Assembly (NCBI RefSeq): GCF_000744815.1
Contig: NZ_JQMQ01000005.1
Coordinates: 5,723,801-5,787,800, forward strand
DNA: 64,000 bases
Origin: Phaeacidiphilus oryzae TH49
Lineage (GTDB): Bacteria > Actinomycetota > Actinomycetes > Streptomycetales > Streptomycetaceae
Reading direction: 5' to 3'
This document shows, piece after piece, positions 16,129-27,075 of this stretch (positions are counted from its first letter, which is position 1; every line of letters starts with the position of its first letter). The translations under genes and the position numbers were made by a program. The notes beneath the pieces are model-generated. The model had not been told where the DNA came from and did no database searches. It worked only from the letters and a program-made list of their open reading frames with translations.

Positions 16129-16905
16129 CTACAGGCCCGCCGCGTACTCCAGCGCCCCGCGCGGAAGCTCGGCGCAGCCGGTGTAGCGGGTCAGCAGGAG
16201 GCGGGCGAGTTCCGGGGCGGGGCCCAGGGGCGCGGCCAGGGTGGCGGCGCCGGGCGCGTCGGTCGTCGCGGCGGCGATGCGGTCCGGGAGGAGGCCGGGG
16301 GCCAGGAGGTACGGGGCCACGGCGATGCGGGTCGCGCCCGCCGCACGCAGCGCGGCTATCGCGTCGGGGACCCGCGGCCCGGAGGCCGAGGCGTAGGCCA
16401 CCTCGACGGCCGCCCAGCCCCGCGTCGCGCGGTACGCGGCCGCCACCCCCCGGGTCGCCGCGTTCGCGGCCGGGTCCGAGGAGCCCGCCGCGGCGAGGAC
16501 GATCCCGGTGCCCGGGGAGGGGTGGACGCCGGCCTCCGCGAGCCGGCGGTCGAGGGCCGCGAGGAGGAGCGGATGCGGGCCGAGGACGTCGGCGAGCCGG
16601 ACGTCCAGCCCGGGAAGCCGGGACGTCGCCTCGGCCAGCACCCCGGGGATGTCGTGCTTGGCGTGGAAGGCCCGGTTGAGGAGCAGCGGGACCGCGATCA
16701 CCGGCCGCTCCGGGTCGTCCGACCAGAGGCGTTCCAGGACCTGGGGGAGCCGGGGCGCGCAGTGGTCGAGGTACCCCGCGGTGACCGCGAGGTCCGGCCG
16801 CAGCCCGCGCAGCGCCGTCGTCAGCCCGCTGACGACCGCGGCGTGCCGGGGGTCCCGGCTGCCGTGGGCGACGAGCAGCAGTACCGGCTGACGTGGTGGC
16901 GTCAT
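16129..16905 (-). CDS. Sirohydrochlorin chelatase-like protein (CbiX/SirB type)
   Basis: 258 residues with two CbiX-like halves. The metal-site motif VLLLVAHGSRDP is near the N terminus, and a second AAAGSSDPAANAATR segment marks the second half. The family inserts Fe2+ (siroheme) or Co2+ (cobalamin) into sirohydrochlorin. Siroheme is the cofactor of CysI encoded at the head of this gene block, so a ferrochelatase role is the best reading. I chose ATG 16905 because ACGGAG lies six bases upstream; two earlier in-frame starts (16911, 16923) leave no room for a ribosome site. It starts 15 bases after the end of the permease gene, so it belongs to the same transcript. Confidence 0.83.
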   Translation of the reverse strand: MTPPRQPVLLLVAHGSRDPRHAAVVSGLTTALRGLRPDLAVTAGYLDHCAPRLPQVLERLWSDDPERPVIAVPLLLNRAFHAKHDIPGVLAEATSRLPGLDVRLADVLGPHPLLLAALDRRLAEAGVHPSPGTGIVLAAAGSSDPAANAATRGVAAAYRATRGWAAVEVAYASASGPRVPDAIAALRAAGATRIAVAPYLLAPGLLPDRIAAATTDAPGAATLAAPLGPAPELARLLLTRYTGCAELPRGALEYAAGL

Positions 16906-16919
16906 GCGCATCTCCGTGA

Positions 16920-17822
16920 TCACCTCTTGGCGGCGAGCAGTCCGCGGGAACGTAGCACCCGCCGTTCCATCGGGGAGAAGACGACCAGTTCGATCCCGAT
17001 CCCGACGAGCAGGATCAGGATGATGGTCGCGAGTACCGTCGGCATGTCCTGGATGTCACGGGCGTTTTCCAAAGCCTGACCGAGGCCGATGCCCAGGGCG
17101 GGAGAACTCGCGATCAGCTCGGCCGCCATCAGGGACCGCCAGGCGAACGCCCAGCCCTGCTTGAGGCCGGCCATGTAGCCCGGCATCGCGGCCGGCAGCA
17201 GGATGTGCCAGATGCCGCGGAGTCCGGTCGCGCCGAGCGTCCGGCCGGCCCGCAGGTAGAGCGGCTGGACCTGGTCGACCCCGGCGACCAGGCCGTTGGC
17301 GATGGACGGCACGGCGCCGAGGAGGATGACGCAGTAGATGGTGGCGTCGGAGAGGCCGAACCAGATGATGGACGCCGGCACCCAGGCCACCGAGGGGATG
17401 GACTGCAGCCCGGTGAGGATCGGCCCGATGGCCGCCCGCACCACCTTCACCCTGGCCACCACCAGGCCGAGCGGGGTGCCGATCACCGTCGCGACCAGGA
17501 AGCCGAGGACCCCGCGGGAGAGCGAGGTCCAGATCGGCTGGAGGAGGGTGCCCTTCAGCCACTCCTGGTGGAGGCTGTTCCAGACGTCGGCGGGACCGGG
17601 GAGGAGGTCCGGGCGCTTGATGCCGGACCAGTAGATCAGCTGCCAGATGACGAGGACGAGGACGACCGCGACCACCGGCGGCAGGACCTTGCGGAGGAGC
17701 ACCGCCCGGAGCGGTTCGCGGGCCGGCTCGCTGCTCTCCAGGGCGTCCAGGCCCGCTTCCAGCCCGGAGAGGCCGGTCGCGGTGGTGTCCGCCGACTCGG
17801 TTCGGGTCTCAGTGCTGGCCAT
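16920..17822 (-). CDS. ssuC: Sulfonate/taurine-type ABC permease
   Basis: 300 residues. After a 45-residue cytoplasmic start come about six membrane segments (VVAVVLVLVIWQLIYWSG first) and the EAA loop (LYLRAGRTLGATGLRGIWHI). The closest known group is SsuC/TauC, which with SsuB and SsuA imports alkanesulfonates or taurine. ATG 17822 overlaps the end of ssuB by 14 bases. The location after the cys genes supports sulfur-source uptake rather than nitrate or thiamine-precursor uptake, which use similar permeases. Confidence 0.87.
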   Translation of the reverse strand: MASTETRTESADTTATGLSGLEAGLDALESSEPAREPLRAVLLRKVLPPVVAVVLVLVIWQLIYWSGIKRPDLLPGPADVWNSLHQEWLKGTLLQPIWTSLSRGVLGFLVATVIGTPLGLVVARVKVVRAAIGPILTGLQSIPSVAWVPASIIWFGLSDATIYCVILLGAVPSIANGLVAGVDQVQPLYLRAGRTLGATGLRGIWHILLPAAMPGYMAGLKQGWAFAWRSLMAAELIASSPALGIGLGQALENARDIQDMPTVLATIILILLVGIGIELVVFSPMERRVLRSRGLLAAKR

Positions 17823-18639
17823 GGCGGCGGATCTCCCCACGGAGCTGTTCGGTGATCTCGACGGAGAGTTCGGCCACGCCCGCCGACTCGATGCGGCGGG
17901 GCTGCGGCAGGTCGATCGTCCACTCGCGGGCGATCCGGCCGGGGCGGGAGGAGAGGAGCACCACCCGCTGGGCGAGGCGGACCGCCTCCCGGACGTTGTG
18001 GGTGACGAAGAGGACGGAGAGGCCGAGCCCGGAGTCGCCGGAGGTGTTGGCGGCCCCCCAGATCCGGGTGAGCTCCTCGTGGAGGACGTCCCGGGTGATG
18101 GCGTCCAGGGCGGCGAAGGGCTCGTCCATCAGCAGCACAGGGGACTGCTGGGCGAGGGCGCGGGCCATCGCCACCCGCTGGCGCATCCCGCCGGAGAGCT
18201 CGTGCACCCGCTTGCGGTAGGAGCCCTTCAGCCGGACGAGTTCGAGCAGCCGCTCGGCCTCGTCCCTGCGGTCGGCCCGGGGCACCCCGCGCAGCCGCAG
18301 GGCGAGTTCGATGTTGCGGCCGGCGGTGAGCCACGGGAAGAGCGCGTGCTCCTGGAACATCAGGGCGGCCCGGCCGCCCTCGACCTCGATCGCCCCCTGG
18401 CTCGGCGACTCCAGGCCGGCCACCAGGTTGAGCAGGGTGGACTTGCCGCAGCCCGAGGCGCCGAGGAGGCAGACGAACTCGCCGGGGGCGACGTCCAGGC
18501 TGATGTCGTCCAGTACCGGCGCCGATCCTGGGCGGCCGAAGGTCTTGGAGACGTGGTCGATGCGGACGGCCGGGGCCGTGCCGGAGCCGGGCTCCGACGG
18601 CGCGGCCGACCGGGGGGGCTGGGTGAGCGCCGGGGCCAT
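17809..18639 (-). CDS. ssuB: Sulfonate/taurine-type ABC ATPase
   Basis: 276 residues. Walker A GASGCGKST, Q-loop MFQEHALFPWLT, signature LSGGMRQRV, Walker B VLLMDEPFAALD and the switch His in VLFVTHN are all present. It energises import through SsuC. I chose ATG 18639 because AGGAGGTGACCGGC lies directly upstream; earlier in-frame codons would extend into a region that forms a long hairpin. It is co-directional with ssuA and overlaps ssuC. Confidence 0.9.
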   Translation of the reverse strand: MAPALTQPPRSAAPSEPGSGTAPAVRIDHVSKTFGRPGSAPVLDDISLDVAPGEFVCLLGASGCGKSTLLNLVAGLESPSQGAIEVEGGRAALMFQEHALFPWLTAGRNIELALRLRGVPRADRRDEAERLLELVRLKGSYRKRVHELSGGMRQRVAMARALAQQSPVLLMDEPFAALDAITRDVLHEELTRIWGAANTSGDSGLGLSVLFVTHNVREAVRLAQRVVLLSSRPGRIAREWTIDLPQPRRIESAGVAELSVEITEQLRGEIRRHGQH

Positions 18640-18665
18640 GCCGGTCACCTCCTGTGCTTTCTGAG

Positions 18666-18747
18666 CCGGTGCCCGCCCCGCGTCCCCGTCGGCGTGATCG
18701 ACGGGCATCGACGGGATCGCCGCAGGGGGCGCGAGGGCGGGCACCGG
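18666..18747 (-). promoter_or_regulatory. Long hairpin between ssuA and ssuB
   Basis: A perfect 13-base stem, CCGGTGCCCGCCC (18666-18678) with GGGCGGGCACCGG (18735-18747), closes a loop of about 56 bases. It falls inside the transcript after ssuA and before the ssuB ribosome site. This could stabilise the ssuA message or partly terminate transcription so that binding protein exceeds ATPase and permease (inference). Confidence 0.45.
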
Positions 18748-18795
18748 AGTCGGGGAGGGGTACAGGGGTACGGGACGCGGATCAGTAGGCGACGC

Positions 18796-19920
18796 TCACT
18801 GCGTGCCGAGGCCCGCCGCGCTGACGGCGGGCTTTCCGGCGGCCTTGAGCACCTTGTTCAGCGGGGTCAGGTCGTAGATCCCGCTGAGGTCGGGGGCGGA
18901 GAGGAGGCCCGCGGTGACCGCGTGCTGCGCCTCCGTCTTGAGGGTGGAGGCCAGCGGGTCGTCGGTGACCTCGATGTTCTTCCAGGCGTCGTCGAGGACG
19001 ACGGTCGGCAGGGGCTTGCCGGTGAGCTTGGCGAGCGCCTGGTTGGCGGTCTTCTTCGCCTCGGCCGGGTTGGCGGCGATCCAGTCGTTGGTGTCGACGG
19101 AGGCCTTGAGGACGGCCTCGACCACGTCCGGGTGCGCCTTGAGGAACTTCTGCGAGACGATCACGTTGGTGGTGACGAACCTGCCGCCGGGCCACAGGCT
19201 CTTCTCGTCGACGAGGGTCTTCCCGCCCGCCGCGACCAGCTTGGAGGCGGTCGGCTCGGGCACCCAGGCACCGTCGATCTGATCGGACTTGAACTCGGTG
19301 GGGGTGAGGGAGTTGTCCGTGCGGACCACCGAGACGTCGCCCTTGCCGGACTGCGCGTCCTCCTTGAACCCGTGCTGGGAGAGGAAGTTGAGGAGGGCGA
19401 CGTCCTGGGTGTTGCCGAGCTGCGGGCTGGCGATCCTCTTGCCCTTGAGGTCCGCGATGGACTTGATCTTCGACGGGTTCACCACCAGCGAGGCGCCGCC
19501 GGAGACCGAACCCGAGATGATCCGCAGGCTGGTGCCCTTGGACTTGCTGTAGCCGGAGATCGCCGGGGAGGGGCCGATCCAGCCGATGTCGATCGAGCCG
19601 GCGTTGAGCGCCTCGATCTCGGACGGGCCGGCGTTGAAGATCTGGGTCTGCAGCTTGGTGCCGCCCAGGTCCTTCTGGAACCGGCCGTTCTCCACCCCCA
19701 CCAGCGGGGTGGTGTGGGTGATGTTGCCGAAGTACCCGATCCGCACGGTGGACGCGGAGAGCGCCTTGCCGGACGCCTGGACGGTGGACCCGGTGGTCGC
19801 CGCCTGGGAGCCGTACCCGCAGGCGGACAGCAGCGCGGCGAGGGCGAGGACGGAGCCCGAGAGGAGCGCGGGCTTTCTCCAACGCTGGCGCGGGGTGGAC
19901 AGGACGGGGCGGACGGACAT
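18796..19920 (-). CDS. ssuA: Sulfonate-binding lipoprotein
   Basis: 374 residues. The N terminus is a lipoprotein signal: basic residues, a hydrophobic stretch (LLSGSVLALAAL) and the lipobox LSAC with the modified Cys at about 34. The mature part is an SsuA/THI5-like periplasmic-binding fold (VRIGYFGNITHTTPLVGVE, IEALNAGSIDIGWIGPSP, DLKGKRIASPQLGNTQDVALL). It captures alkanesulfonates or a similar sulfur source outside the membrane and hands it to SsuC. It follows cysN after about 260 bases on the same strand, so it may have its own promoter. Confidence 0.88.
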   Translation of the reverse strand: MSVRPVLSTPRQRWRKPALLSGSVLALAALLSACGYGSQAATTGSTVQASGKALSASTVRIGYFGNITHTTPLVGVENGRFQKDLGGTKLQTQIFNAGPSEIEALNAGSIDIGWIGPSPAISGYSKSKGTSLRIISGSVSGGASLVVNPSKIKSIADLKGKRIASPQLGNTQDVALLNFLSQHGFKEDAQSGKGDVSVVRTDNSLTPTEFKSDQIDGAWVPEPTASKLVAAGGKTLVDEKSLWPGGRFVTTNVIVSQKFLKAHPDVVEAVLKASVDTNDWIAANPAEAKKTANQALAKLTGKPLPTVVLDDAWKNIEVTDDPLASTLKTEAQHAVTAGLLSAPDLSGIYDLTPLNKVLKAAGKPAVSAAGLGTQ

Positions 19921-20184: not shown

Positions 20185-21495
20185 TCAGAACGCCTCTCCG
20201 GCCATGCCGGCGGTCAGCGTGGAGCCGTCCGCCTGGTCGACGAGGATGAAGGAGCCGGTGCGGCGGTTGACCGCGTAGGGGTCCAGGGCCAGCGGCTCGG
20301 CGGTGCGCAGCACCACGTGACCCAGGTCGTTGAGGCCCAACTCGTCCGGGCGCTCGGCCCGTTCCAGGGTCTCCACGTCCAGGCGGTAGGGGATGTCCTT
20401 GACGACGGCCCGCACGGTGCGGGTGGTGTGCCGCAACAGGACCTTGTCGCCGATGCGCAGCGGGCGCTCGTGGAGGTGGCAGACGGTGGCCTCGATGTCC
20501 TTGACCGGTTCGGGCGCGGGCGCCCCGGCGATCAGGTCGCCGCGGGAGACGTCCAGGTCGTCGGCCAGACGCACGGTCACCGACTGCGGGGCCCAGGCCA
20601 GTTCGGCCTCCCCGCCGTCCATGGTGTCGATCCCGGCGACGGTGCTGGTCTGCCCGGAGGGCAGCACGGTCACCTCGTCCCCGACCCGCAGCACCCCGGA
20701 GGCCAGCTGCCCGGCGTAGCCGCGGTAGTCGGCGTGCTCGGCGCTCTGCGGGCGGATGACGTACTGCACGGGGAAGCGCACCGGGTCGCCCGCCGGGTCG
20801 GCGGCGACCTGGACCGACTCCAGGTGCTCCAGCAGCGTCGGCCCGCCGTACCAGTCCATCTCGGCGCTGGGCTCGACCACGTTGTCCCCGGCCAGGGCCG
20901 AGATCGGGACCGCGGTCACCTCCGGCACGCCCAGCCGCCGCGCGGTGGCGGTGAACTCCTGCGCGATGGCGGCGAAGACCGGCTCGGCGTAGCCGGCCAG
21001 GTCCATCTTGTTGACGGCCAGCACCACGTGGGGGACCCGCAGCAGGGCGGCCACCGCCAGGTGCCGGCGGGTCTGCTCGACCACGCCGTTGCGGGCGTCC
21101 ACCAGCACCACGGCCAGCTCGGCCGTGGAGGCGCCGGTCACCATGTTCCGGGTGTACTGCACGTGCCCGGGGGTGTCGGCCAGGATGAACCGCCGCTTGG
21201 CGGTGGCGAAGTAGCGGTAGGCCACGTCGATGGTGATGCCCTGCTCGCGCTCGGCCCGCAGGCCGTCGGTGAGCAGCGCCAGGTCGGGGGCCTGCTGGCC
21301 GCGCCGGCGGGAGGCCGACTCGACCGCCTCCAACTGGTCGGCCAGCACCGACTTGGAGTCGTGGAGGAGCCTGCCGACCAGGGTGGACTTGCCGTCGTCC
21401 ACGGAGCCGGCGGTGGCGAAGCGCAGCAGCGAGGTCTCCTCGGCGACCAGCCGGGCGGCCGCCGACTGCACTGCGGTGTCGGTGAGTTCGGACAT
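20185..21495 (-). CDS. cysN: Sulfate adenylyltransferase subunit 1 (GTPase)
   Basis: 436 residues, the stand-alone CysN length (no fused APS kinase, which is encoded separately by cysC). The G domain has GSVDDGKST (G1), GITIDVAYRYF (G2), ADTPGHVQYTRNM (G3) and NKMDL (G4), followed by EF-Tu-like beta-barrel domains. It couples GTP hydrolysis to APS formation by CysD. ATG 21495 starts two bases after the cysD stop codon, indicating translational coupling. Confidence 0.95.
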   Translation of the reverse strand: MSELTDTAVQSAAARLVAEETSLLRFATAGSVDDGKSTLVGRLLHDSKSVLADQLEAVESASRRRGQQAPDLALLTDGLRAEREQGITIDVAYRYFATAKRRFILADTPGHVQYTRNMVTGASTAELAVVLVDARNGVVEQTRRHLAVAALLRVPHVVLAVNKMDLAGYAEPVFAAIAQEFTATARRLGVPEVTAVPISALAGDNVVEPSAEMDWYGGPTLLEHLESVQVAADPAGDPVRFPVQYVIRPQSAEHADYRGYAGQLASGVLRVGDEVTVLPSGQTSTVAGIDTMDGGEAELAWAPQSVTVRLADDLDVSRGDLIAGAPAPEPVKDIEATVCHLHERPLRIGDKVLLRHTTRTVRAVVKDIPYRLDVETLERAERPDELGLNDLGHVVLRTAEPLALDPYAVNRRTGSFILVDQADGSTLTAGMAGEAF

Positions 21496-21497
21496 CT

Positions 21498-22463
21498 TTA
21501 GAAGTACCCCTCGCGCTTGCGGTCTTCCATGGCGGCCTCGGACAGCTTGTCGTCGGCGCGGGTGGCCCCGCGCTCGGTCAGCCGGGAGGCCGCCACCTCG
21601 GCGATCACGGCCTGGACGTCGGCGGCCTCGGAGTCGACGGCCCCGGTGCAGGACATGTCGCCCACCGTGCGGTAGCGCACCCGCCGCTTCTCCACGGTCT
21701 CGCCGTCCTTCGGGCCGCCCCACTCGCCCGCGGTCAGCCACATCCCGTTGCGCGCGAACACCTCGCGCTCATGGGCGTAGTAGATCTGCGGCAGCTCGAT
21801 CCCCTCCCGGGCGATGTACTGCCACACGTCCAGCTCGGTCCAGTTGGAGATCGGGAAGACCCGCACATGCTCGCCCGGCAGGTGCCGGCCGTTGTACAGC
21901 TGCCACAGCTCCGGGCGCTGCCGGCGCGGGTCCCAGGCGCCGAACTCGTCGCGGAGGCTGAAGACCCGCTCCTTGGCCCGGGCCTTCTCCTCATCCCGTC
22001 GGCCGCCGCCGAAGACCGCGTCGAACCGGCCCCGCTCGATGGCCTCCAGCAGCGGCACGGTCTGCAGCGGGTTGCGGGTGCCGTCCGGCCGCTCCCGCAG
22101 CCGCCCGTTGTCGATGAACTCCTGGACGGAGGCCACGTGGAGGCGCAGCCCGTGCTTCTCGACGGTGCGGTCCCGGAACTCGATGACCTCCGGGAAGTTG
22201 TGCCCGGTGTCCACATGCAGCAGCCCGAAGGGCACCGGCGCCGGCCGGAACGCCTTCAGTGCCAGATGCAGCATGACGATCGAGTCCTTGCCGCCGGAGA
22301 AGAGGATCACCGGACGCTCGAACTCCCCCGCCACCTCGCGGAAGATGTGCACCGCCTCCGCCTCCAACGCGTCCAGATGGGAGAGCGCGTACGGGCGGTT
22401 CCCAGCGGTGGTGGCGGCGCTGGAGCCGGGCTTGGTTGCGTCGGTCTCGGTGGCGACGGTCAC
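21498..22463 (-). CDS. cysD: Sulfate adenylyltransferase subunit 2
   Basis: 321 residues. The PP-loop motif is ILFSGGKDSIVMLHLALKAF, and the family segment FGGGRRDEEKARAKER is intact. It condenses sulfate and ATP to adenosine 5'-phosphosulfate with CysN. The start is GTG 22463, overlapping the cysC stop by four bases (GTGA). It ends with the usual EDRKREGYF. Confidence 0.95.
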   Translation of the reverse strand: MTVATETDATKPGSSAATTAGNRPYALSHLDALEAEAVHIFREVAGEFERPVILFSGGKDSIVMLHLALKAFRPAPVPFGLLHVDTGHNFPEVIEFRDRTVEKHGLRLHVASVQEFIDNGRLRERPDGTRNPLQTVPLLEAIERGRFDAVFGGGRRDEEKARAKERVFSLRDEFGAWDPRRQRPELWQLYNGRHLPGEHVRVFPISNWTELDVWQYIAREGIELPQIYYAHEREVFARNGMWLTAGEWGGPKDGETVEKRRVRYRTVGDMSCTGAVDSEAADVQAVIAEVAASRLTERGATRADDKLSEAAMEDRKREGYF

Positions 22464-23038
22464 GCCAGTCCCCTCTCGTTGAGCAGTGCCTCAAGCGCGG
22501 CGGCCGACTCCTCGACCGTCTGGTCCTGGGTCTCGATGCGCAGATCCGGCGAGGCCGGCGGCTCGTACGGGTCGTCCACCCCGGTCAGCCCGCTCAGCTC
22601 ACCCGCCGCCTGCTTGGCGTACAGCCCCTTGACGTCCCGGTCGGAGCAGACCTCCACCGGCGTGGCCACATGCACCTCCAGGTACGCGGTGCCCCGGTCG
22701 GCGTGCCGCTTGGCGACGGCCTCCCGGGACTCGGCATAGGGGGCGATCACCGGTGCGAGGACCACCACCCCGTGCGAGGCGAGGAGTTCGGCGACGAAGC
22801 CGATCCGGGTGACGTTGGTGTGCCGGTCCTCGCGGGTGAAGCCGAGCCCGCGGGACAGGTACTCGCGGATCTCGTCGCCGTCCAGCACCTCGACCCGCCG
22901 TCCACCGGCACGCAGGCGGTCGGCGAGGGCGCGGGCGATCGTCGTCTTGCCGGCGCTGGGCAGGCCGGTCAGCCATACGGTCGCGCCGCTTGCGGTGCCT
23001 CCCGCTGAGGCGGGGGCGTCGGGCGGGGCGGTGCTCAT
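22460..23038 (-). CDS. cysC: Adenylylsulfate (APS) kinase
   Basis: 192 residues. P-loop GLPSAGKTT, then LDGDEIREYLSRGLGFTRED and RRIGF-like NVTRIGFVAELLASHG, all typical of APS kinase. It phosphorylates APS to PAPS. Because the neighbouring CysH looks like an APS reductase, PAPS may serve mainly for sulfotransfer. I chose ATG 23038, with GGAG nine bases upstream, over a TTG at 23053. It overlaps cysD by four bases. Confidence 0.93.
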   Translation of the reverse strand: MSTAPPDAPASAGGTASGATVWLTGLPSAGKTTIARALADRLRAGGRRVEVLDGDEIREYLSRGLGFTREDRHTNVTRIGFVAELLASHGVVVLAPVIAPYAESREAVAKRHADRGTAYLEVHVATPVEVCSDRDVKGLYAKQAAGELSGLTGVDDPYEPPASPDLRIETQDQTVEESAAALEALLNERGLA

Positions 23039-23116
23039 CGGACGGGGCTCCAAGGTCTCGACGGTAAGAAACAGGCGTGGACGGAAGGGAACGGTAAGAG
23101 GGCCGGGGGTACTCTC

Positions 23117-23836
23117 TCAGGCCTTGCTGAGAGGTTCATGAAGGCCGCACTCGGTCTTGGAGAGCCCAGCCCAGCGCCCGTCCCGGGCGCTCTCGCCGGG
23201 CAGCAGCCGCCGCGTGCAGGGCGCGCAGCCGATGGACCCGTAGCCGTCCATCAGCAGCGGGTTGGTAAGAACGCCGTGAGAGGCAACGTAGGCGTCCACG
23301 TCCTCCTGGGTCCAGCGGGCGATGGGGGAGACCTTGACCCGGCCGTTCTTCTCGTCCCAGCCCACGACGGGCGTGTCGGCCCGGGACGGGGACTCGTCCC
23401 GGCGCAGGCCGGTGGCCCAGGCCTGATAGCCCGCCAGACCGCGACGGAGCGGCTCCACCTTCCGCAGGGCGCAGCACAGGTCGGGATCCCGGTCGTGCAG
23501 CCGCGGTCCGTACTCGGCGTCCTGCTCGGCCACGCTCTGACGGGGGGTCAGTGTGATCAGGTTCACGTCGTAGACGGCCTCGACGGCGTCTCTGGTGCCG
23601 ATGGTCTCGGCGAAGTGGTAACCGGTGTCGAGGAACACCACGTCGACGCCGGGCTTCACAGTGGAGGCCAGATGGGCCACCACCGCGTCCTCCATCGAGG
23701 AGGTCACGCAGAAGCGGTCGCCGAAGGTCTCCACCGCCCAGCGCAGGATGTCCTGCGCGGACGCGTTCTCCAGCTCGTGGCCGGCCGTGGTCGCCAGTGC
23801 CCTGAGCTCGTCCGCCGAGCGGTCGGCTGCGGTCAT
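23117..23836 (-). CDS. cysH: Assimilatory APS reductase (CysH family, iron-sulfur type)
   Basis: 239 residues. The PP-loop variant is RFCVTSSMEDAVVAHLAS. Four cysteines in the pattern LCC (residues 120-121 region) and CAPC (in GYGSIGCAPCTRR) would bind a [4Fe-4S] cluster. This marks adenylylsulfate rather than PAPS reductases. The catalytic Cys is in the C-terminal KTECGLHEP. It reduces APS to sulfite with thioredoxin. ATG 23836 overlaps the preceding small gene by four bases (ATGA). Confidence 0.92.
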   Translation of the reverse strand: MTAADRSADELRALATTAGHELENASAQDILRWAVETFGDRFCVTSSMEDAVVAHLASTVKPGVDVVFLDTGYHFAETIGTRDAVEAVYDVNLITLTPRQSVAEQDAEYGPRLHDRDPDLCCALRKVEPLRRGLAGYQAWATGLRRDESPSRADTPVVGWDEKNGRVKVSPIARWTQEDVDAYVASHGVLTNPLLMDGYGSIGCAPCTRRLLPGESARDGRWAGLSKTECGLHEPLSKA

Positions 23837-24069: not shown

Positions 24070-25770
24070 CTACTTCAGGTCCGACTCGGGGGCGCGGGCC
24101 GCCCACTGGGCGAACCGCTCGCCGTCCTGACGGTCCGCCAGGTACCGCCGGAGCACCCGCTCGATGTAGTCCGGCAGCCCGGCCGAGGTCACCTTCAGGC
24201 CGCGGACCTTGCGGCCGAAGCCGGGGTCCAGGCCGAGCCCGCCGCCCAGGTGCACCTGGTAGCCCTCGACCTGCTCGCCGTTCTCGTCCAGGATCAGCTG
24301 CCCCTTGAGACCGATGTCCGCGGTCTGGATCCGGGCGCAGGCGTTCGGGCAGCCGTTCAGGTTGATGGAGATCGGCTCGTCGAACTCCGGGAGCCGGCGC
24401 TCGAGTTCGGCGATCAGGTCGGCCCCGCGGCTCTTGGTCTCGACGATGGCCAGCTTGCAGAACTCGATGCCGGTGCAGGCCATCGTGCCGCGGCGGAAGG
24501 CGGACGGCTCGACCTGGAGGTCCAGCGCGGCCAGCCCGGCCTTCAGCGACTCGACCCGGTCCTCGGGCACGTCCAGCACCACCATCTTCTGGTGGGCGGT
24601 GGTGCTGAGGCGGCCGGAGCCGTGCTCCTCGGCCAGGTCGGCGACCTTGGCCAGCAGCCCGCCGTCCACCCGGCCGACCCGCGGCGCGAAGCCGATGAAG
24701 TAGCGGCCGTCCTTCTGCCGGTGGACGCCGATGTGGTCGCGCCAGCGGTCCACCGGCTCGGCCGGGGCGGGCCCGTCGACCAGCTTGCGGTGGAGGTACT
24801 CGTCCTCCAGCACCTGCCGGAACCTCTCCACCCCCCAGTCCGCCAGCAGGTACTTGAGCCGGGCGCGGTTGCGCAGCCGGCGGTAGCCGTAGTCGCGGAA
24901 GATGCCGGTGACCCCCGCCCAGACCTCGGGGACCTCGTCCAGCGGCACCCAGGCGCCGAGCCGCTCGGCGAGCCGCGGGTTGGTGGAGAGGCCGCCGCCG
25001 ACCCAGAGGTCGAAGCCGGGGCCGTGCTCGGGGTGCTCGACGCCGACGAAGGAGATGTCGTTGATCTCGTGCACCACGTCCAGGGTCGGCGAGCCGGAGA
25101 TCGCCGTCTTGAACTTCCGCGGCAGGTTGGAGAACTCGGGGCTGCCGATGTACTTCTCGCTGATCTCCTCGATGGCCCGGGTGCCGTCCAGGATCTCGTC
25201 GGCGGCGATCCCGGCGACCGGCGAGCCGAGGATGACGCGGGGGACGTCGCCGCAGGCCTCGGTGGTGGAGAGGCCGACGGCCTCCAGCCGCTGCCAGATG
25301 TCCGGCACGTCCTCGATCCGGACCCAGTGCAGCTGGATGTTCTGGCGGTCCGTCAGGTCGGCGGTGCCGCGGGCGTACGCCTGGGAGACCTCGGCGATGG
25401 TGCGCAGCTGCTCGGTGGTGAGCCGGCCGCCGTCGATCCGGACCCGCAGCATGAAGTAGCGGTCGTCCAGCTCCTCCGGCTCCAGGATCGCCGTCTTGCC
25501 GCCGTCGATCCCGGGCGCCCGCTGGGTGTACAGCCCCCACCAGCGGAAGCGGCCGCGGAGGTCGCTGGGATCGATGGAGTCGAAGCCGGCCTTGGCGTAG
25601 ATCGTCTCAATGCGTGTCCGCACATTGAGACCGTCGTCGTCCTTCTTCGTCTGCTCGTTGCCGTTGAGCGGGGTGAAGTGTCCGGCCGCCCACTGGCCCT
25701 CGCCGCGGTGGCGGCCCGCCTTGCGCGCGGCGGGGCGCGGGGCCCGGTCGGTGGAAGGGGAGGAAGCCAT
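24070..25770 (-). CDS. cysI: Ferredoxin-dependent sulfite reductase
   Basis: 566 residues, a monomeric siroheme/[4Fe-4S] reductase of the nitrite/sulfite reductase family. The cluster and siroheme ligands are in ACTGIEFCKLA and NLNGCPNACARIQ. The duplicated ferredoxin-like half domains begin with RVRIDGGRLTTEQL and VPEDRVESL. It reduces sulfite to sulfide with six electrons. The alternative, nitrite reductase, is less likely given the cys neighbours. ATG 25770 follows AAGGA by seven bases. It is the first large gene of the operon, preceded by a leader peptide. Confidence 0.92.
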   Translation of the reverse strand: MASSPSTDRAPRPAARKAGRHRGEGQWAAGHFTPLNGNEQTKKDDDGLNVRTRIETIYAKAGFDSIDPSDLRGRFRWWGLYTQRAPGIDGGKTAILEPEELDDRYFMLRVRIDGGRLTTEQLRTIAEVSQAYARGTADLTDRQNIQLHWVRIEDVPDIWQRLEAVGLSTTEACGDVPRVILGSPVAGIAADEILDGTRAIEEISEKYIGSPEFSNLPRKFKTAISGSPTLDVVHEINDISFVGVEHPEHGPGFDLWVGGGLSTNPRLAERLGAWVPLDEVPEVWAGVTGIFRDYGYRRLRNRARLKYLLADWGVERFRQVLEDEYLHRKLVDGPAPAEPVDRWRDHIGVHRQKDGRYFIGFAPRVGRVDGGLLAKVADLAEEHGSGRLSTTAHQKMVVLDVPEDRVESLKAGLAALDLQVEPSAFRRGTMACTGIEFCKLAIVETKSRGADLIAELERRLPEFDEPISINLNGCPNACARIQTADIGLKGQLILDENGEQVEGYQVHLGGGLGLDPGFGRKVRGLKVTSAGLPDYIERVLRRYLADRQDGERFAQWAARAPESDLK

Positions 25771-25824
25771 GTGGTGGGTCCTTCGGCAGGTTCGGCCTCG
25801 CGGGGGCCTTCGGCTTCCGGGACG

Positions 25825-25845
25825 CACCGGCTTTCCCGGCCGGTG
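25825..25845. promoter_or_regulatory. Hairpin between leader peptide and cysI
   Basis: CACCGGC-N7-GCCGGTG, a perfect 7-base stem about 55 bases upstream of cysI, inside the leader transcript. It may be part of an attenuation or translation-coupling structure. No T-run follows, so Rho-dependent or translational control is more likely than a simple terminator. Confidence 0.4.
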
Positions 25846-25967
25846 GACCGGGGTGTTCCGTGTGCTGGCTGGTCGTGGGGGTCCCGACCTGTCCCGGGGC
25901 CGCCGGCTCCGCTACGGCAGGGGCAGCAGAGTTGGTGTGGCGGTTTCAGCGGGGTGGTGACGAACCG

Positions 25968-26060
25968 TCACCGGGCACAGGTCGCCGGACAGATGGCGCT
26001 GGACATGCGGCCGAGGTCGACGTGCAGTCGACCTACCAGATCCGTACCAGCGTGAGACAT
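25968..26060 (-). CDS. Cysteine-responsive leader peptide of the cys operon
   Basis: 30 residues: MSHAGTDLVGRLHVDL (first 16), then GRMSSAICPATCAR. The core L-x-R-x-HVDL-x-R-x-SSAIC matches the putative leader peptides found upstream of sulfur-assimilation operons in actinomycetes, which end in conserved Cys codons. It lies 197 bases upstream of cysI on the same strand. Scarce charged Cys-tRNA would stall ribosomes at the TGT codons near the end and change the fold or Rho access of the downstream RNA, raising cys expression (mechanism inferred from other amino-acid leaders). Confidence 0.8.
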   Translation of the reverse strand: MSHAGTDLVGRLHVDLGRMSSAICPATCAR

Positions 26061-26247
26061 GGCTAGAGAGTCGCACGCAGATCTTCCGGACGTCCACTGC
26101 TGTCCGCACTGTGAACAAATGACTCTCGAATAATGAGATGAAATATCGGAGCGCCTTCTTGCCGCGCCGGAGCCCGATCCTCCGCTGACAGCCGGGGCCC
26201 ATGTGCCACTCATGCTTCACTCATATACGGCCCTTACCTTGAGGGCC

Positions 26248-27075
26248 ATGACTCTTATCGACCCCGCCCGCCTGGCCAAGTCGATCCCGCAGGTTCGGCG
26301 CTTGATCGACCAGCGGGACCGGCTCCTCCGGCAGCGCGACGACCTGCGGGAACAGGTGGAGGCCATCCGCCTTGAGCGCGACTACCTGCAGCAGCTCGGC
26401 GGGGCCGGGCCGTCCGACGGCGAAGCCGAGGCCTCTTACACATACGCCTTCATCCTCACCTACGGCCGGTCCGGGTCGACCCTGCTGCAGAACCTGTTGA
26501 CCTCCGCGCCCGGGGTGCTGATCCGCGGCGAGAACCAGGGCGTGCCGTACCAGCTGTACCGCTACCACTCGCAGGTGCTCCACCACCGGGACCGGCTGGC
26601 CCGGCCCGAGCCGCTGCCGCCCACCCACCCCTGGTTCGGCATCGACGGCTACCCCGAGGCGCACGCGCTGCGCAGCATGCGGCGCCTGATCACGGAGACC
26701 CTGCTGCGTCCGCATCCGGACACCAGGGTGGTCGGCTTCAAGGAGATCAACTGGCCCTTCGGCGAGCTGGTCGCCTACGTGGACTTCCTGAGCGGGATCT
26801 TCCCCGGGGCCCGCTTCATCGTGAACACCCGGAACCTGGACGACGTGGCCAAGAGCAAGTGGTGGGGGCGCCGGGAGGACGCTCTGGACCACCTCGGCGA
26901 GCTGGAGGAGCGGATGCTGGCCGCCGCGGGCCATCTGGGCGACCGCGCCTTCCGCATCCACTACGACGACTACCTGGCCGACCCCGGCCGGCTGGAGCCG
27001 CTCTTCGAGTGGCTGGGCGCCGAGTACGACCGTGAGCGGATCGAGAAGGTGATGGGGATCCGCGCGTCGTACTGA
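26248..27075 (+). CDS. PAPS-dependent sulfotransferase family protein
   Basis: 275 residues. Residues 12-50 form a charged coiled coil (RRLIDQRDRLLRQRDDLRE). The sulfotransferase core begins with the 5'-phosphosulfate loop TYGRSGSTLLQNLL, followed by GFKEINWP and the 3'-phosphate segment FPGARFIVNTRNLDDVAKS. It transfers sulfate from PAPS to an unknown acceptor. ATG 26248 is the start nearest the family's beginning; an upstream in-frame start at 26203 would cross the divergent cys promoter region. It is divergent from the operon that makes PAPS. Confidence 0.82.
   Translation: MTLIDPARLAKSIPQVRRLIDQRDRLLRQRDDLREQVEAIRLERDYLQQLGGAGPSDGEAEASYTYAFILTYGRSGSTLLQNLLTSAPGVLIRGENQGVPYQLYRYHSQVLHHRDRLARPEPLPPTHPWFGIDGYPEAHALRSMRRLITETLLRPHPDTRVVGFKEINWPFGELVAYVDFLSGIFPGARFIVNTRNLDDVAKSKWWGRREDALDHLGELEERMLAAAGHLGDRAFRIHYDDYLADPGRLEPLFEWLGAEYDRERIEKVMGIRASY

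Follow-up and report, generated by a model that had tools for sequence, protein, structure and literature searches.

The leader ORF and its operon

Is the short ORF upstream of the cysI operon of Phaeacidiphilus oryzae TH49 a cysteine sensor, and if so, which part of it does the sensing? The ORF lies on the minus strand of the window, the whole 64,000-nt stretch of DNA analysed here. The original prediction had described a 30-codon ORF with a recognisable motif 197 nt from cysI, and all three are present, as confirmed by translation, coordinates and a 30.4-bit match to the NCBIfam profile NF042934. The features of the leader are:

25968..26060, minus strand: leader ORF, 30 codons plus TGA (translation and NF042934 match)
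25989..26030, minus strand: conserved core, R11 to C24 (R-L-H-V-D-L-G-R-M-S-S-A-I-C); NF042934 matches residues 8-24
25989..25991, minus strand: Cys codon TGT that lies 11 codons beyond the H of HVDL, proposed as the control codon (comparison of leaders)
25977..25979, minus strand: another Cys codon (TGT), one that few orthologues have (comparison of cysI leaders)

Translation of window:25968-26060 on the minus strand gives MSHAGTDLVGRLHVDLGRMSSAICPATCAR followed by the stop. The profile search score against NF042934 ("putative leader peptide") has a cut-off of 27 and an E-value of 2.1e-7, and the same leader is also above the cut-off in the genome search, with 28.7 bits. Against NF042936, the Ms4527A Cys-rich leader, the peptide reaches 15.2 bits, below the cut-off of 45. 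The R, D, L, R and C positions of the core are conserved across leaders. Cysteines are found at codons 24 and 28 only, which are non-adjacent, i.e., there is no run of Cys codons. No clear Shine-Dalgarno (SD) sequence was seen before the leader ATG, a promoter scan returned no sigma-70-like promoter, and the window has no Rfam match at gathering score.

Behind the leader, and all on the same strand, lie cysI, the other sulfate assimilation genes, an ABC uptake system and a chelatase gene:

25778..25784, minus strand: SD-like GAAGGAC of cysI, 7 nt before the ATG
24070..25770, minus strand: cysI, nitrite/sulfite reductase family
23117..23836, minus strand: cysH
22460..23053, minus strand: cysC, adenylyl-sulfate kinase
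21498..22463, minus strand: cysD
20185..21741, minus strand: cysN (ORF as listed; domain match from near residue 95)
16920..19920, minus strand: ABC uptake genes (substrate-binding protein 18796-19920, ATPase 17809-18744, permease 16920-17840)
16129..16923, minus strand: CbiX-type chelatase

The leader stop is 197 nt from the cysI ATG (25770-25768). The name cysI relies on operon context and best hits, because the protein scores below the CysI equivalog cut-off. The true start of cysN is probably further in than that of the listed ORF. A sulfotransferase-family gene (PF13469) at window positions 26203-27075 reads away from the leader. Judged by its sequence, the ORF at 25968-26060 is a real leader, beyond chance, because of its NF042934 score and its orthologous place in 60/60 assessable genomes. 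The NF042934 match and the operon context likewise bear out the predicted class, a cysteine-type leader of the kind known from actinomycetes.

Distribution of the leader

The leader precedes cysI in 60 of 61 family genomes, with the contig of the remaining one beginning at cysI, and in 78 of 80 named loci, the other two being cut by contig ends; all assessable cases (60/60 and 78/78, two sets that may overlap in species) therefore have it, and in every one of these cysI leaders the conserved codon is TGT. A Cys control codon before the cys operon is thus kept in 60/60 assessable genomes, as expected of an attenuator. Cys codons beyond the conserved one are rare, with 1/60 family and 4/78 named cysI leaders having one. 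Both Cys codons that had been noted in the window leader exist, and both are TGT, but the second is no essential feature, given that 59/60 cysI leaders do without it.

Matches to NF042934 occur in all 61 family genomes sampled, in at least 181 of 296 genomes sampled from the class and in 13 of 246 sampled from the phylum, all 13 of which belong to the same class as the window. The family is probably Streptomycetaceae, to which the nearest named cysI loci belong. The genome of the window itself has seven matches above the cut-off and two just below; its leaders precede genes for a ThiS-like carrier, rhodanese, SfnG, SsuE, a CDO_I thiol dioxygenase, an arylsulfotransferase and a DUF1684 protein, as well as cysI. 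The family and class leaders studied are a subset, among the matches listed. We grouped 198 leader-gene pairs, whose gene starts were assigned with a simple rule. Most numerous are cysI-like (70), DUF4395 (25), ThiS/MoaD (20) and rhodanese (18) genes, followed by luciferase-like monooxygenase (8), SsuE (6), CDO_I (6) and SfnG (5); smaller groups include CysM, sulfatase, SsuA and CysH, and a ROK protein, a dicarboxylate-type symporter and a 2-oxoacid oxidoreductase are also found. The genes called downstream are largely sulfur genes. As a marker of such genes, the leader predicts a role in sulfur supply for, e.g., the thiol dioxygenase, DUF1684 and DUF4395 genes that follow it.

Back-to-back divergent leaders occur at L015/L016 and at L258 (both strands near 1402), with two sulfur operons sharing one intergenic region. 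One CDO_I thiol dioxygenase gene (L012 734-1264) lies behind a leader, which is odd for a cysteine-shortage switch unless sulfur is released from other thiols.

A near-fixed TGT codon

With codons numbered from the H of HVDL, 199 of the 203 distinct leaders among the matches listed have TGT at +11, 1 has TGC and 3 have a non-Cys codon; the profile behind this tally derives from leaders with Cys at +11 throughout, which biases it to the residue and not to the codon. Left out were duplicate loci (L001-L007), weak own-genome matches (L017-L023), tRNA loci (L211-L251), contexts truncated at the end of a locus and ORFs extending more than 45 codons beyond the codon. The exceptions are L288 (TGC), L158 (TAG), the second leader of L055 (TGA) and L016 (GGC). 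After removal of copies more than 75% alike, TGT remains at +11 in 50 of 53 leaders. As a control, TGT makes up 1/184 (family) and 18/166 (class) of the Cys codons of the downstream genes, and 8.3% of the 109 Cys codons in CDS-like ORFs of the window. With redundancy weighting, T makes up 98.9% at the third position of the +11 codon, whereas at every other third position examined the commonest base accounts for only 35-81%. Cysteines at +4 and +9 are mostly encoded by TGC, in 67/73 cases (TGT in 6) and in 35/44 (TGT in 9), respectively. In the 11 poly-Cys leaders, TGT is used in 7/8 cases at +9, 1/9 at +10, 11/11 at +11, 8/10 at +12 and 7/10 at +13; the notion that +11 is the sole TGT site in such leaders was dropped, as TGT is common at +9, +12 and +13 too.

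A class-wide fixed synonymous site amid drifting wobble sites is unusual, and it falls on the very codon that an attenuator would use for cysteine. Peptide-level searches are blind to this choice, and in the open-licence literature we found no earlier report of a fixed UGU in such leaders; the sole remark on UGU there is about a different leader, in which UGC prevails. We consider the near-fixed TGT new; a normally avoided codon at this spot suggests that the ribosome measures cysteine there. The predicted sensing at a Cys codon thus gains support from an unexpected side.

Some leaders deviate. The variants with HIDLLRVCSA(F/I), at L016 1501-1551 and as the second, minus-strand leader of L055, carry a TGC-encoded Cys at +7, with Gly or a stop codon at +11, and precede genes with similar-looking starts; they form a possible subclass. 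At L158 (260-310), TAG replaces the Cys codon of a leader before a ThiS/MoaD-type gene.

Why would UGU be kept? Of the 62 tRNA matches in the genome, ARAGORN typed 51, among them one tRNA-Cys, with anticodon GCA; of the remaining 11, one reads TCC by eye and ten long ones (82-88 nt) were left out. Hence a single tRNA seems to serve both UGC and UGU. In the selective-charging theory of control codons, as far as set out in the accessible text, codon choice depends on several isoacceptors, and low sensitivity is predicted for a small fraction of control codons (PMC1183508). Selective charging gives no ground for a UGU preference here, because both codons seem to be read by a single tRNA; a theory built on isoacceptor competition is inapplicable if this is so. 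Nor is there a nearby RNA pairing partner that is equally fixed, because the other third positions stay at 35-81%. Pairing of the U of UGU with the SD (GUCC:GGAC) was rejected as the general cause of TGT, as leaders with other SDs still have TGT. Since neither selective charging nor an equally fixed pairing partner explains UGU, decoding itself may be under selection: the G-U wobble codon would be read more slowly and be less saturated, making a single codon usable as a sensor.

RNA between the leader and cysI

The spacer varies from 115 to 233 nt across the cysI loci. In the window it has the following features:

25771..25967, minus strand: 197-nt spacer, C-rich, from leader stop to cysI ATG
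25825..25845, minus strand: 7-bp hairpin CACCGGC-CGGGAAA-GCCGGTG, no T-run after it
25886..25897, minus strand: CCGGGACAGGTC, complementary to GACCTGTGCCCGG at the leader end (25971-25983) with one bulged base; not conserved across all groups

The 7-base hairpin noted earlier does exist, but a role as conserved control element finds no support: among 59 cysI spacers the stem is found in that of the window alone, and hairpins with a perfect 7-bp stem occur in 5/59, at chance level (shuffle mean 6.85). Intrinsic transcription attenuation was rejected, with no terminator-like site in 25700-26300, as was a conserved RNA element, with no Rfam match and with RNAalifold giving six different structures for six cysI-spacer groups. 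Duplex energies between leader end and spacer are at shuffle level (mean z -0.06).

The 70 nt that follow the leader stop are rich in C, with 48.5% C and 26.6% G over 59 cysI loci, compared to 37.1/37.1 in random 70-mers of the window and 29.4/27.9 upstream of the leaders.

We determined by equilibrium folding how much the cost of opening the cysI ribosome-binding site (RBS) changes when a footprint is masked at the UGU, with shuffled sequences for comparison. Over 48 cysI pairs the gain is 0.81 versus 0.52 kcal/mol (p 0.17). For the cysI of the window it is 0.0 kcal/mol, and a separate folding calculation gave z -1.66, so that folding of the leader-to-cysI stretch, put forward earlier as a check, does not support ribosome-dependent exposure of the RBS. 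Across 57 pairs with mixed spacers, the mask at the UGU gains 0.92 kcal/mol versus 0.61 for masks elsewhere in the spacer (p 0.90), and only a mask 30 nt upstream differs (p 1e-4). Sequestration of the RBS as a general mechanism, attractive from single duplexes, was rejected given the mean z of -0.06 and the outcome of the masking test for cysI.

How the leader may act

The comparisons point to ribosomal cysteine sensing at one wobble-read UGU in the translated 5' leader of cysI, a reading that we regard as likely. On this view, the 5' portion of the cysI transcript would carry the ORF as a translated sensor. A shortage of charged tRNA-Cys would make the ribosome wait at the +11 UGU, and its position there would raise the expression of cysI together with the genes that follow, making low cysteine the inducing state. 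UGU would be kept since the sole tRNA-Cys (GCA) reads it by G-U wobble, a slow and sensitive step, and the R-x-H-V-D-L-x-R chain, located in the exit tunnel at that moment, would strengthen the wait. Two candidate routes would lead on from the stall: the cysI RBS is freed, or Rho-dependent termination in the spacer is blocked. Counting against this reading are the scans that found no intrinsic terminator or sigma-70 promoter, the duplex energies at shuffle level, the masking results for cysI and the mixed set, the additional TGT sites of poly-Cys leaders and the four exceptions at +11. CDO_I behind some leaders counts against it too, as it fits a cysteine-shortage switch only if the enzyme scavenges sulfur.

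Classical translational attenuation, as for mycobacteria, would have the leader end pair with the RBS until a stalled ribosome frees it, with UGU being kept for pairing. For pairs with short spacers (UGU to start at most 130 nt) the data do favour this: the mask at the UGU gains 2.30 versus 0.51 kcal/mol for shuffled sequences (45 pairs, p 2e-5), the effect is positive in 13 of 18 gene clusters (p 0.027), poly-Cys leaders pair with ...ACAACAGGAG, and leaders pair better with their own RBS than with RBSs taken from the other clusters (p 0.0017 over 29 cluster means). However, the effect is not significant for longer spacers (24 of 61 pairs tested; 0.80 versus 0.35 kcal/mol, p 0.18) or for the 48 cysI pairs, and neither is leader-RBS pairing compared to shuffled tails (p 0.27). 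Moreover, downstream partners vary by cluster, and a variable partner should allow more than the one compensating UGC found in 200 leaders with Cys. The folding models thus support RBS sequestration for short-spacer relatives and not for cysI; as an account of the cysI leader, and of why UGU is kept, we find it doubtful. Rho-dependent attenuation, in which release at the leader stop lets the C-rich spacer load Rho and a ribosome held at the UGU covers the start of the loading region, is about as doubtful. The 48.5% C after the leader stop would suit Rho, and in the text available to us Seliverstov et al. (2005) proposed Rho for actinobacterial cys leaders (PMC1262725). Yet the C bias does not single out cysI, because short-spacer leaders share it (47.3/26.9 C/G), and the window's own stretch is at just the 89th percentile of minus-strand 70-mers. 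A last alternative is that of an ordinary leader, where ribosome traffic merely supports expression or coupling and cysteine is not sensed at all. We found no direct data on a cysteine response in Streptomycetaceae in the open-licence literature, but an ordinary leader gives no cause for keeping a rare Cys codon nearly fixed in front of sulfur genes, and a gap of 115-233 nt would be long for coupling, making this alternative very improbable.

With sensing at the UGU as the preferred reading, the conservation of the peptide calls for an explanation of its own. In 173/173 leaders the residues R(-2), D, L and R(+5) stay the same while their codons vary, a constancy that for D, L and R(+5) comes partly from a search pattern demanding D and L, while R(-2) is outside the pattern; this tally differs from that of 203 leaders only in search pattern and de-duplication. 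R(-2) is encoded by CGG (54), CGC (49), CGA (43) and CGT (16), with AGG also used, and some leaders found via the profile have F, Y or H in place of L. The conserved residues precede the Cys by 6-13 residues, a region in which arrest peptides touch the tunnel. A role for the nascent chain is suggested because a run of control codons would need no such conservation of residues, and the chain would probably assist sensing at the UGU. In the strongest version, R-x-[HA]-V-D-L-x-R in the tunnel makes the codon 11 residues later limiting, and this codon is necessarily a wobble-read UGU. Such a nascent-chain-gated single-codon cysteine sensor is a tentative proposal, to which we give somewhat less than an even chance. 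If true, one peptide before dozens of unrelated sulfur genes, across a bacterial class, would coordinate sulfur uptake through ribosomes alone.

Probable transcriptional control by an NdgR-like regulator

Upstream of the leader lies a candidate operator:

26102..26116, minus strand: GTTCACAGTGCGGAC, an NdgR-like operator that departs from the published motif by one mismatch and lies 56 nt upstream of the leader ATG

ChIP-seq has located NdgR upstream of cysI, cysA and cysM in S. coelicolor, and its motif is given in the accessible part of that study (PMC4340878). With at most 2 mismatches, the motif is present before 48 of 58 family cysI leaders, compared to 1 of 58 for shuffled sequences. Matches in the whole window are frequent (52 versus 17.65 expected), so that the weight of this evidence lies in the constant place before the leader. 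The 48/58 motif matches suggest that the operon is probably under both transcriptional (NdgR-like) and leader control.

Comparison with known systems

Actinomycete Cys leaders and Cys-responsive attenuation in mycobacteria are already known. NF042934 itself, to which the window peptide belongs by its curated cut-off, is annotated as cis_reg_atten and covers the peptide only, with no mechanism or codon named. In the accessible text of Seliverstov et al. (2005), Cys leaders are described before the cys operons of Mycobacterium and Propionibacterium acnes and before cbs of Bifidobacterium longum; like the cysI leader they precede cys genes and have no intrinsic terminator, but they contain runs of Cys codons, and Streptomyces cys leaders are absent from that text (PMC1262725). 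The S. lividans re-annotation, in the sections available, reports eight leader peptides, with no Cys leader among them (PMC8079986).

Outside the actinomycetes, the cysS leader uORFC-8-2 of Rhodobacterales is likewise a Cys-codon uORF before a Cys-related gene, but according to the available text it has two tandem Cys codons, UGC as the dominant codon (the opposite preference) and an intrinsic terminator (PMC8632094). With enterobacterial amino-acid attenuators and selective charging, our proposal shares the principle that the choice of control codon sets sensitivity; that theory, in the text seen, rests on several isoacceptors (PMC1183508), whereas one tRNA-Cys was found in the window genome.

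Close relatives are the mycobacterial poly-cysteine attenuators encoded by leaderless sORFs (Canestrari et al. 2020; NF042936 Ms4527A), which have the same core, sulfur genes downstream and Cys near the end, and which respond to cysteine according to the available texts (PMC9031893, PMC13236596, PMC9094748). The cysI leader differs from these in having one conserved Cys and no run, and a longer spacer for which RBS sequestration is unsupported. Leaders with Cys runs in our class sample, which we infer to be mycobacterial, have the same core as the window leader and TGT at +11.
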